A DNA stretch of 64,000 nucleotides from Haloplanus aerogenes (GTDB taxonomy: Archaea; Halobacteriota; Halobacteria; Halobacteriales; Haloferacaceae): contig NZ_CP034145.1 of the NCBI RefSeq assembly GCF_003856835.1, positions 1-64,000 on the forward strand, in the 5' to 3' direction. Position numbers and translations under genes: made by a program. The notes below the pieces were generated by a model. That model saw nothing but the letters and a program-made list of their open reading frames with translations, was not told the origin of the DNA and made no database searches. Shown here in pieces: positions 550 through 64,000 of the stretch (the stretch's first letter is position 1; every line of letters starts with the position of its first letter).

Positions 550-669
550 CAGGCAACCCACGAGGAGATTTATGCTTGCTACGCCGAGGAATTCCCCCAC
601 TACGTCGACAACCTCCCCGAATTCAGAACGTTTACTAGGCTAGCAAAAATGAGGCTGTTTTATGAATGA
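550..669 (+). pseudogene. Possible protein-coding remnant between two genes
   Basis: After a stop at 547-549, one frame stays open for 39 codons and reads like a real acidic/aromatic protein fragment (for example EEIYACYAEEF and DNLPEFRTF). It has no start codon and ends at the TGA at 667-669, overlapping the first codons of the next gene. I do not recognise the family. It could be the tail of a lost gene or of a transposon-borne gene, or chance in a short stretch. Confidence 0.25.
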
Positions 670-1884
670 AATGTCACGCCGCCAAGCAATTAGTCTGCTT
701 GGCGCGGGGGCAGTGACCGGATTAGCGGGTTGTAGCTCGAATGGTGAATCCACATCGACCGAGACAGCGACTGATGTGCCACCAACCAGTCCGACCGCGA
801 CACAGACGGCAACGCCAACGGCTGTGCCACAAACAAAGGATGAAATCACTACTCCTGAGGGGAACAAGAATAAACTATCGACTGGAAAACTACGGACTTC
901 CCAGAAGATATCGCGTCTCTCAGCGTCCACAGAGATACTGTTTACGTTGGTTTGTTTGACAGCACGCTGCGTGCTCTCGACGCGGCGAGTGGCAAAGAGC
1001 AGTGGTCGGTGGAACTGGATAACTGGGAGACGTTGTTGGAAGCAACGGAAAGTGGCATTTATGCTGGTGCTGGCTCCTATTTAAACAGCGTCAACACAGA
1101 CGGAACAGTTGAATGGGTGATCCACGCAGACGATCAGCTTAGGGGCATCACCGTTAATAATGGCACTGTATATGGCAGTGACGACGCAGGCTACGCTTAC
1201 GCTGTTGACATTGGCGGGACTCTTCACTGGAAGACTGAGTTGATGTTCAGTACGGTTAGCGATGGCCAGAGGACAACCCACTTCGGGTCTCCCCTGGGAG
1301 CTCCAATTGTTCAGGGGGATACCGTGTATGTCACTGGAGGGAACTACCTCTGGAGTTTAGGAATTGACGACGGGTCAATTACGTCTCATCTAAAATTCGG
1401 CGAATCTGAAATCACGACGCAAGTTGTTGCAGCGGGCAATCGGCTGTTCTATGGCGGAGGGCCCACTGTTATCAGGGCTGTGAATCCTGATGACGGTTCG
1501 AGTGAATGGACGTTCACCCCGGAGGACGCTCGAGCGGCTGGAGCAGCGGCTCCGCCAGTTATTACCGGTGACAGTATGTTCGTCGCTGCGAACGAAGTGC
1601 GAGACAGTACGCCAATCCCCGCGATGTATCGTCTTGACACCGCTGACGGGGAGGTTGACCAGCGGACAGTTCTTCCGGGGCCGACGACGTGGCTCAAGTT
1701 CATTGATGGATTGTTGTATGCTCTCATCGACAAGGACGTGTATATTCTCGATTCCGAGACGATGTCGGTAGCAGGGTACTTCAGTCCCGACACTGAAAGC
1801 CGTCACTTCCTTCTGGTGCCCGCAAATGAAGAACTGTATTTCACTATGGGGAAGACGCTCTACCGACTGTCGACATCCGTATGA
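662..1884 (+). pseudogene. Frameshifted Tat-exported lipoprotein with PQQ-like beta-propeller
   Basis: The first frame, from ATG 662, encodes a twin-arginine lipoprotein signal (SRRQAISLLG, lipobox LAGC at about residues 21-24) and a Thr/Pro-rich linker. The second frame, usable from about 874 to 1884, encodes a WD40/PQQ-type propeller with repeated blades such as VYVGLFDSTLRALDAASGKE and VYVTGGNYLWSLGIDDGS. The frames meet in the A-rich stretch at about 866-876, where a shift of one base joins NKNK to a DWKTTDFPED start. The intact protein would be about 407 residues, anchored on the outer face of the membrane. The gene is either a recent pseudogene or carries a one-base sequence error. Base composition is less GC-rich than in most of the window, which suggests an accessory gene. 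Confidence 0.75.
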
Positions 1885-2409
1885 CCACATCGTCATCCGC
1901 GGCTGTTGCCGCTGGTCTCCCCGACGAGTTATGCGGAAGGCCCCACGCACACCTATTTCCACGGTCTCCAGATGCAACGAATGTTCATCGGCACCGCCAC
2001 TCACTGCTCACTGATCACAACGCCATCTCGACCAGAGCGACTATCGAATAGATATCTACGGATACTGTTCAGATTAGGATTGGATGTGGACCCCTCGAAA
2101 GCCCCCGGCGGCCGGTCGGCCAGCCGATGCGGGCGGGACTGAAAGGGGCGACTCGCTGGAGTCGGGGCTTTCGAGGTGGTCCCAGTGTCACCTGCTTATC
2201 TGAACACTACCACCGTGAGTACCGAAATGAAGCGTGACTATACTCGGTCCAGAACAGCGGGGAGTCGGGGGGGCGCAGTATGTCAGAGGCACCCGTTCCC
2301 CCTGTTGGCTATCGCTCCGCAGCTGGATATACCCTGTCTGTTCCCCAGATAATAAACAATCTACCAATATCGGGACACCCACGGAGGTGAACAGTTACGA
2401 CGACCCGTA
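1885..2409. other. Gene-free stretch of about 525 bases
   Basis: No convincing gene: the short ORFs here have no family-like sequence and overlap on both strands. The stretch contains a near-perfect inverted repeat (2088-2182, listed separately). Towards 2340-2400 there is a more AT-rich part with AATAAACAAT, which may serve as a terminator or promoter. Confidence 0.5.
2088..2182. ncRNA. Long GC-rich inverted repeat, candidate structured RNA
   Basis: The left arm (2088-2105, GGACCCCTCGAAAGCCCC) pairs with the right arm (2164-2182, GGGGCTTTCGAGGTGGTCC) along 18 base pairs with one bulged base. The 58-base interior holds further GC-rich pairing and the core GGGACTGAAAGGGGCGAC. No protein reads through it. 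A dispersed haloarchaeal RNA or the end of an IS605-type element would look like this, but that is a guess. The orientation cannot be fixed from the stem alone. Confidence 0.35.
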
Positions 2410-4606: not shown

Positions 4607-4825
4607 ATGGCCGACAAGACCATCCGCATCTCCGAGGAGAACTGGCGTCGGCTGGAGGAACTGAAAGAGGAGGGTGACTCTTTCGACGACGTCGTCACCC
4701 GCCTCACGACCGGCGACCGCTGGAGCGGGTTCGGCGCACTCGCTGACGTGGGTATCAGCGAGGGAATGGCCGACGCCCACGACCGGTTGCGCGAGGAGAT
4801 GGATCGGCGCGTCGACGAGTCCTGA
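4607..4825 (+). CDS. vapB: VapB-type antitoxin
   Basis: A 72-residue protein with a ribbon-helix-helix-like N-terminus (ADKTIRISEENWRRLEELKE) followed by an acidic, probably disordered C-terminus that would wrap the toxin. This is the haloarchaeal VapB antitoxin pattern (DUF7557-like, by memory). Start ATG 4607 was preferred over the in-frame upstream codons because the antitoxin fold starts there and the operator repeat ends at 4606. Its stop overlaps the vapC start by one base (TGATG), so the pair is co-translated. Confidence 0.8.
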   Translation: MADKTIRISEENWRRLEELKEEGDSFDDVVTRLTTGDRWSGFGALADVGISEGMADAHDRLREEMDRRVDES

Positions 4826-5223
4826 TGCTGTGTTTCGACACTAATCTCCTCGGTGACTACCTCGACGGCATCGCCGCCGCGAAGGTGTTTCTGGAGGGAT
4901 ACGAGACGGAGCCGTGGGCGGTTCCGAGCCTCGTGCTCTTCGAGGCCTATATGGGTGCAATCTACGGGCGACCACGCGGGACGATAGAGGACGTGTACGC
5001 GGCGACCCGCGAGTTCGAGGTGCTGGACATCGGTGACGACACCGTTCTCCGAGCGGCTCGCTTGCAGAAAGACCTCGAGTCCTCGGGCATCGAACTCGAA
5101 TCCGTCGACGCGCTCCTCGTCGCCAGTGCCGACGAACACGGCGCGACGTTCGCCACGAACGACGGAACGCTTCTCGAACCGGCGGTGGGGGAACGCATCG
5201 ATGTCATCGAGTACCCGCGCTAA
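4825..5223 (+). CDS. vapC: VapC-type PIN-domain ribonuclease toxin
   Basis: A 132-residue PIN-domain protein. The conserved acidic residues expected around the metal site are visible: Asp5 in CFDTN, Glu40 in SLVLFEAYMG, Asp95 in LESVDALLVA, and Asp113 in FATND. VapC toxins cut specific RNAs, often initiator tRNA or rRNA loops, when VapB is degraded. The length is typical. The pair lies between the Fe-S oxidoreductase and the biotin transporter operon, with no functional link to either, which fits a mobile toxin-antitoxin module. The RNA target cannot be read from the sequence. Confidence 0.87.
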   Translation: MLCFDTNLLGDYLDGIAAAKVFLEGYETEPWAVPSLVLFEAYMGAIYGRPRGTIEDVYAATREFEVLDIGDDTVLRAARLQKDLESSGIELESVDALLVASADEHGATFATNDGTLLEPAVGERIDVIEYPR

Positions 5224-62633: not shown

Positions 62634-64000
62634 CTACACCTCGTCCAGCGGGTAGATGGGCCGCGGAACGTGGTCGTAGTCGAACGCCGAAAGATCCGGG
62701 CTACAGAGCCCCGGCGTCGCCACCTCGCGCACTCCGCCGACGAAGGGTTCGAACCCCGCGCGGTAGTGGACGGTGCTCTTGAGGACGAGGACGCGCCGCC
62801 GTTCAGGCGTGATCCCCTGACTCCGGAACGCCTCCGGATCGTAGGGTTGCTGGCGGTGAGAGCCGACCAGTACGTCGATTCCATCCACGTCGAGAAGCGC
62901 CGTCCGGCCGAAGGAGACGGCCAGTCCCGTCGACATCGGTCCCTGATTCCGGTAGTCGCCGTCGGAGAGCAGGCGGACCCGACCCGTCACGTCGAGCGGG
63001 TCGCCGTTCTCGCCGCTCCGCCCGCCGAGCGCCAGCGACACCTCCTCGCCGATGCCCGCGTCGACGGCCGCCTCGACCGCTTCGGGGTCGTAGATGGTCG
63101 CCAGCGCCGCGTCCTCGACGCCGGCGTCGAGGAGGGCACGGAGCAACACCACGCCGTCTTGTGCGCTCCCGCCGCCGGGATTGTCGGAGATGTCGGCGAG
63201 GAGGAGTGGCGCGTCGTCGTCCCACGCCGCCGCCTCCGCCGCGGCGTCGTCGACGCTCGTGTAGTCGCGGTCGAACTCGCCGCGTCGATCCACCGCCTCG
63301 TCGGCGAGGGCGCGACAGGTCGCGCGCGCGTCGTCGGCCACCGAGCGATCCGCGACGCCGACGACCGAGAAGCCGGCGTGGTCCACGTCGGCGTAGGCGA
63401 ACCCGCCGAACACCGACACGTCCGGCACCTCCTCCCCTTCGGCGTCGGCCGACGACGCGAGCAGTGAGGCCATCGGCTCCGTCTCGGTCCGGAGTTCCGG
63501 GAGCGGCGGGAGCAGGGGGGCACGCTCCACGATCACCTCGGGGTCGAGGTCGCCACGGAGCGTCGCCGCCATCGCCCGCGCCGCCGTCTCGCCCGTGTCC
63601 CCGATGTCGACGTGCGGGTAGGTGTCGTAGCCGAACAGGCCGTCCGCGTGGGTCGCCATCCGCTCCGAAATGTTGGCGTGGAGGTCGAGCGACGCCATCA
63701 CCGGAACGTCCGGCCCGACCGCGCGGCGCACGCGTTCGAGGATGTAGCCGTCGCCGTCCGGCGCCGCTTCACTCACCATCGCGCCGTGCAGGGCGAGGAG
63801 GACGCCGTCCGGGTCCGAATCCTCGATGCCCTCCAGTACCGCCTCCAAGAGCGTCTCTCGGGCGTCGGCGGTAACGGTCCCGCCCGGCGTCGCGTCGGCG
63901 GCGACGGTCGGCACGACGTCCCAGTCCGCTTCGTCGGCCACCCGCAGGAACCCACCGACGGCGGTGTTGGTCCCCTGCAGGTCGTCGATCACGTCGTCGC
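62634..64000 (-). CDS. M81-family metallopeptidase (MlrC/microcystinase-like), partial
   Basis: The C-terminal ~455 residues of an M81 protein. The N-terminal end is beyond the right edge of the window, since the reading frame is open to base 64000. Landmarks are VLLALHGAMVSEAAPDGDG, ASLDLHANIS with the conserved His, YDTYPHVDIGDTGE, and ADISDNPGGGSAQDG in the second half. MlrC-like enzymes cut amide bonds in cyclic peptides or amino-acid derivatives; the substrate here is unknown. It shares its strand with the Fe-ADH gene. Confidence 0.88.
   Translation of the reverse strand, partial: DDVIDDLQGTNTAVGGFLRVADEADWDVVPTVAADATPGGTVTADARETLLEAVLEGIEDSDPDGVLLALHGAMVSEAAPDGDGYILERVRRAVGPDVPVMASLDLHANISERMATHADGLFGYDTYPHVDIGDTGETAARAMAATLRGDLDPEVIVERAPLLPPLPELRTETEPMASLLASSADAEGEEVPDVSVFGGFAYADVDHAGFSVVGVADRSVADDARATCRALADEAVDRRGEFDRDYTSVDDAAAEAAAWDDDAPLLLADISDNPGGGSAQDGVVLLRALLDAGVEDAALATIYDPEAVEAAVDAGIGEEVSLALGGRSGENGDPLDVTGRVRLLSDGDYRNQGPMSTGLAVSFGRTALLDVDGIDVLVGSHRQQPYDPEAFRSQGITPERRRVLVLKSTVHYRAGFEPFVGGVREVATPGLCSPDLSAFDYDHVPRPIYPLDEV

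Follow-up and report, generated by a model that had tools for sequence, protein, structure and literature searches.

An intergenic inverted repeat in Haloplanus aerogenes read as a degraded copy of a miniature element with IS6-type ends

REP and REPIN elements of bacteria are short hairpins of intergenic DNA that have a constant flank and often come as inverted pairs. Among mobile elements, close described systems include the MITEs of the IS6 family. In the accessible part of PMC7986276, that family is characterized by 8-bp repeats and conserved GG tips, and two of its members are MITEs, one 227 bp and the other 336 bp long; the same part gives deletion or inversion as outcomes of IS6 transposition within one replicon. 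MITEHarch3 and MITEBth2 are named as IS6-family MITEs in the portion of PMC6807381 available to us, and the name alone suggests a haloarchaeal host for MITEHarch3. We analyzed positions 1 to 64,000 of contig NZ_CP034145.1 of Haloplanus aerogenes (all 64,000 nucleotides, here called the window), in which an inverted repeat had been picked out from the letters alone.

The repeat lies between a plus-strand ORF ending at 1884 and a minus-strand gene ending at 2410. Its inner arms, at 2088-2105 (GGACCCCTCGAAAGCCCC) and 2164-2182 (GGGGCTTTCGAGGTGGTCC) as read on the plus strand, are complementary save for one bulged base, and the gap-free pairing between them is 13 nt long (2093-2105 with 2164-2176). 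None of 1,000 dinucleotide-preserving shuffles of 2061-2211 contained a perfect arm of at least 13 nt, the longest being 12, and a perfect inverted repeat of at least 13 nt occurred in only 3 of 2,554 overlapping 150-nt tiles of the window, two of which belong to the element at 2061-2211. The third tile holds a GC-rich pair at 63324-63339 and 63447-63462. Predicted folds were unusually stable for the RNA of 2070-2200 (z, -3.63), the DNA of 2061-2211 (z, -4.96), and the minus-strand RNA (z, -5.93), with none of 200 shuffles equally stable in any of the three. The sequence-only reading had judged the match between the arms, with its single bulge, to be far beyond chance, and these results bear it out. 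It had also remarked that no gene explains the repeat; the only ORFs that cross the element are small and without recognized content. Elsewhere in the window, a lipoprotein-like start (ORF 662-1084, plus strand) overlaps in a different frame a PQQ-repeat ORF (952-1884; Pfam PQQ_2), and the two, spanning 662-1884, look like a single frameshifted gene. The adjacent small plus-strand ORFs at 4607-5223, one from an ATG at 4607 to 4825 and the other from 4825 to 5223, resemble, by eye, a VapB-like antitoxin followed by a PIN-domain toxin.

The sequence-only reading had missed a further pair of arms on the outside, 15 nt long and 87% complementary (2063-2077 and 2195-2209); these arms are part of the real element ends and show the feature to be larger than 2088-2182. 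The whole element, bounded by this outer inverted repeat, occupies 2061-2211 without a strand of its own, and we take it for a 151-bp MITE copy with IS6-type ends; the register of its ends is the same as in 35 other paired copies. The left terminal inverted repeat, GATACTGTTCAGATTAGG (2061-2078, plus strand), has 17 of 18 bases in common with the copy at locus L278, and the right one, GGTAGTGTTCAGATAAGC when read from the outside in (2194-2211, minus strand), agrees at all 18 nt with one tip each of the IS6-family elements L357 and L370. Between them, on the plus strand, lie the conserved G-rich head of a haloarchaeal hairpin unit, GGGCGGGACTGAAAGGGGC (2131-2149), with the motif GACTGAAAGGGGCGAC at 2137-2152, and a collapsed hairpin, GACTC-GCTG-GAGTC (2150-2163), which alignment with L278 identifies as what is left of the longer hairpin that full units carry; the right inner arm then starts with GGGGCTTTC, the sequence that closes the unit.

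Apart from internal gaps, the 151-bp element can be aligned over its full length to the 321-bp copy at L278. Compared with that copy, its left hairpin arm is shorter by 100 bp and its right one by 66 bp, and 4 bp are missing near the left end; its center, head motif included, is nearly identical. Short direct repeats, CGGCG on the left and GAG on the right, mark the junctions of the large gaps as read from this single alignment. There is no transposase gene in the 151 bp, the longest stop-free stretch being 46 aa. The flanks of the window copy, TATCTACG and ACCGTGAG, agree at 2 of 8 bases and thus form no target duplication, for which reason we class it as a derived or degraded copy. An Fe-S gene is common to relatives, yet no relative aligns across the element, and no empty site was found for it. 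The window copy is a degraded relic.

Dispersed copies, which the sequence-only reading had proposed looking for, are present both in the same genome and in other haloarchaeal genomes. The window's own genome has at least three other related places at an E value of 0.002 or better, namely L275 (227 bp, with both ends) and L276 and L277 (one end each), and matches at E 0.001 or better were found in 69 of 197 genomes searched, the window's own included. An exact 16-mer matched 114 stretches in the genome collection; 79 were taken, from record titles and by eye, as haloarchaeal units, leaving out two haloarchaeal stretches (L061 and L084) and 33 non-haloarchaeal ones whose surroundings are unlike the unit. 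Matches also occurred in 44 plasmid records, the named ones haloarchaeal, and phage records gave no match at E 0.001.

The outer ends of full copies are of the type GGTAGTGTTCAGATAAGC / GGTACTGTTCAGATTAGC. A paired-end search of 47 loci that allowed 3 mismatches in 12 positions per end recovered an end pair in 36 of them, the window's included, at lengths of 151 to 493 bp, and left 11 without a pair; two copies, L256 and L275, are 227 bp long. Flanking 8-bp duplications matching at 7 or 8 of 8 bases were present in 12 of the 36 paired copies, all in one register; none of eleven other registers gave more than a single such copy. Only 0.24% of 1,260 mispaired flanks reached the same level, as did none of 10,000 permutations. 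The other 24 copies fell under 7 of 8 in the fixed register; by eye, several of them have a duplication shifted by one or two bases, and others have none.

The 371-bp copy at L036, which is flanked by CCTAGGAC on both sides, has an empty site in relatives. Its left and right flanks were each at least partly matched in all eleven other genomes of the genus. In one of these, G002 (L390), the alignment to the joined flanks shows no indel where they meet, and a single copy of the duplication is present, two bases different; G008 (L391) keeps CCTAGGAC with 6 extra bases at the junction, and in G003 three bases are absent there. In the remaining 8 of the 11, divergence is too great for the junction to be read cleanly, and these relatives gave larger indels or one-sided alignments. 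For the copy at L035, no relative had both flanks side by side.

The end motif also forms pairs in which the two motifs start about 675 bp apart, and in the loci opened these pairs surround transposase ORFs (spans of 686 to 687 bp). One enclosed protein scored 183.5 bits against the NCBIfam IS6 transposase model, whose cut-off is 125, and matched Pfam DDE_Tnp_IS240. We compared the tips of 30 IS6 loci from the window's genus with seven MITE end variants over 18 nt. Agreement was complete in two loci (L357 and L370) and reached 17 of 18 bases in six more, 16 of 18 in two, and 15 of 18 in one. Where ends were credible, the IS6 elements measured 691 to 700 bp; no credible ends were found at L353, L361, L362, L366, and L375. 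A script whose choice of ends favored duplications found an 8/8 duplication in 14 of the 30 loci and, with the same preference, an 8-bp duplication only at L349 and L365 among the eight with tips matching at 17 or 18 positions. The window's genome has four IS6-type matches, at 48 to 49% identity to the query; the two examined (L358 and L367) have ends agreeing with a MITE end at no more than 11 of 18 bases, and IS6 elements with matching ends exist in other genomes of the genus.

We read the family, with a probability of roughly nine in ten, as a non-autonomous MITE with IS6-type ends served by an IS6-family transposase in trans, the window copy being an old derivative. The ends match those of an IS6-family insertion sequence, 8-bp duplications occur in the family, and the 151-bp window copy is too short for a transposase gene. 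The shared ends, the duplications, and the empty site in relatives, all observed here, are the basis of this reading, from which we infer both the action of the transposase in trans and the role of these IS6 elements as partners. On this view, a DDE transposase of the IS6 family, provided in trans, would recognize GGTAGTGTTCAGATAAGC-type ends and insert the element, with 8 bp of the target duplicated. In the window copy, as one alignment suggests, both internal hairpin arms would have been mostly deleted between short direct repeats, and the target duplication may have been lost or never made; deletion or inversion within a replicon could be one way for a copy to lack it. As a mobile element, the MITE is ordinary.

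The sequence-only reading had suggested the end of a mobile element. The mobile element was rightly seen; what lies here is a complete miniature element with both ends, of the IS6 type, and not an end. It had also proposed comparison with IS605/TnpB ends. Haloquadratum is rich in IS200/IS605 (TnpB) and palindrome-associated elements (PATEs), according to the section of PMC3119063 consulted, and the unit has a constant flank beside its hairpin, which counts in favor of such an origin. Those elements are described in the same section as having subterminal palindromes but neither terminal inverted repeats nor target duplications; the inverted ends and 8-bp target duplications of the present family contradict this origin, and we regard it as highly improbable.

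The interior of the MITE is built from a unit of the form GGG[T/C]GGGACTGAAAGGGGC - hairpin - GGGGCTTTC. Across the order, 155 of 293 genomes contain the exact 15-mer GGGACTGAAAGGGGC, with a maximum of 67 copies (G279); its reversed control had no match among the genomes listed. In a set of 197 distinct units, which includes a few chance bacterial matches, GGGT or GGGC precedes the motif in 173 and GGGGCTTT follows within 320 nt downstream in 177; the exact motif itself served to collect most loci, so that selection accounts for part of its constancy, and less so for that of GGG and GGGGCTTT. For the 109 units whose 5' stems are distinct, Watson-Crick pairs form at 10.72 of 12 stem positions, compared with a mean of 5.95 when 3' stems were re-dealt (standard deviation, 0.17; maximum of 2,000, 6.49), a contrast that overstates independence because the units are related to one another. 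The stem is thus kept in relatives through compensating changes, the opposite of the unconserved stem that the sequence-only reading had named as telling against it.

After the removal of tail-less units (1 from the window's genus, 3 from Halonotius-type loci, 8 from other haloarchaeal loci, and 1 from G185/G210), an inverted partner accompanied 39 of 41 units and an IS6-type end 32 of 41 in the window's genus; for Halonotius-type loci the corresponding counts were 29 and 24 of 30 units, for other haloarchaeal loci 25 and 6 of 60, and for G185/G210 0 and 0 of 29. Across lineages, then, the unit is wider than its association with IS6 tips. The flanks of one single unit, L229, lie apart in relatives. 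At L227, 27-bp tandem repeats stand upstream of a single unit and 54-bp repeats downstream (1417-1495 and 1621-1749), and at L078 (1495-1692) 45-bp tandem repeats containing GAAAGCCCC lie beside another. A replichore bias of single units was rejected on inspection of the full list for the G185 and G210 chromosomes, where strands are mixed. A G-quadruplex, suggested by four G runs, was not supported by RNA folding with quadruplexes allowed, which placed one in 0 of 29 units against 21 of 145 mononucleotide shuffles.

Plasmid records placed the unit beside a particular gene. In five of six annotated records opened, chosen from the 44, a conserved gene of about 290 aa lies some 470 to 560 bp beyond the unit; it weakly matches an OB-fold and has a long leader rich in hairpins. 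None of the 30 best loci for this gene has a unit upstream. Among 80 further loci, the motif (at most 2 mismatches) was found upstream in reverse orientation in nine and in forward orientation in none, and 1 of 80 shuffled controls reached the same score. Eight of the nine units stand 429 to 582 bp upstream of the gene; the ninth, at 987 bp, is in the window's own genome. The loci with a reverse unit upstream, each in the same orientation, are L287, L288, L289, L290, and L292 on plasmids and L401, L422, L433, L454, L459, L461, L466, L468, and L472 in genomes. With 9 of 110 loci, taken from the matches listed with weaker fragments left out, the link to the OB-fold gene is real for a minority and not general; the gene itself occurs widely, and in most cases no unit accompanies it.

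It is conceivable that the hairpin unit itself is the functional thing, as a structured RNA or an intergenic transcription signal, with the IS6-type ends incidental to its spread in some lineages. Its occurrence without IS6 ends in G185/G210 and in most other haloarchaeal loci, the covariation of its stems, and its constant orientation 429 to 582 bp upstream of the plasmid gene in 8 of 110 loci all point that way. So do the annotated plasmid records: of the 38 listed, 36 have no gene where the match lies, according to an incomplete gene table. Yet most of the 110 OB-fold gene loci have no unit, and the stable RNA that the sequence-only reading had also suggested gained no positive evidence: the Rfam comparison it had proposed (Rfam 15, gathering score) gave 0 matches in the window and, in 14 other loci, none that covered an element, the two matches there being an RNase P and a tRNA that lie away from the elements. 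The window copy, its hairpin down to a 5-bp stem, is unlikely to keep any hairpin function. We consider this explanation rather unlikely. Pairing could instead be kept, without function, by arm-to-arm correction during replication or repair (quasipalindrome correction), which predicts the same covariation and accords with the collapse of the window arms at short repeats, as slippage would do. Correction alone leaves unexplained the constant GGG[T/C]GGGACTGAAAGGGGC and GGGGCTTTC flanks beside stems that diverge across genera, even though the search motif selected for some of that constancy. The covariation is compatible with structural selection as well as with arm-to-arm correction, and correction alone we hold to be a possible account, at less than even odds.

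For the interior of the MITE, we offer only tentatively the proposal that it is a separate, order-wide structured repeat of haloarchaea, with a constant G-rich head, a paired hairpin of free sequence, and the constant tail GGGGCTTTC, which spreads as single units in many genera and which IS6-type ends captured, as an inverted pair, both in the window's genus and in Halonotius. Were its spread or role to depend on the folded strand and not on the sequence, it would be an archaeal repeat recognized by its fold and tied to no transposase found. About half of the sampled haloarchaeal genomes carry the repeat, and its hairpin is kept by compensating changes, which leads one to ask what, if anything, reads the fold and by what route single units spread. 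In the open literature, which does not cover ISfinder, we found no paper with the core or end sequences, nor, within the same scope, any description of the wider hairpin repeat.

Among known systems, the unit differs from REP and REPIN elements in its constant flank and hairpin size, as far as the relevant part of PMC12306157 allows comparison. The A-type small mobile repeat (SMR) of Haloquadratum, as the consulted section of PMC3119063 defines it, is about 110 bp long with inverted ends and no coding capacity, and in these respects, as in having no target duplication, the window copy is like it. SMR ends are stated there to match no known transposon and SMRs to make no duplication, whereas the present family has ends that match IS6 and duplications; we therefore rejected membership. 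Archaeal IS6-family insertion sequences (NCBIfam NF033587) are alike in terminal sequence and 8-bp duplication, the element differing in being without a transposase gene. The IS6-family MITEs in ISfinder, MITEHarch3 and MITEBth2, are also non-coding and listed under IS6; compared by description only, the present copies range from 151 to 493 bp, the full ones with two hairpin units in inverted order. The 227-bp MITE in the accessible part of PMC7986276 has the same length as L256 and L275, and a MITE family documented by duplications and an empty site adds to the two IS6 MITEs given there, unless it is one of them.
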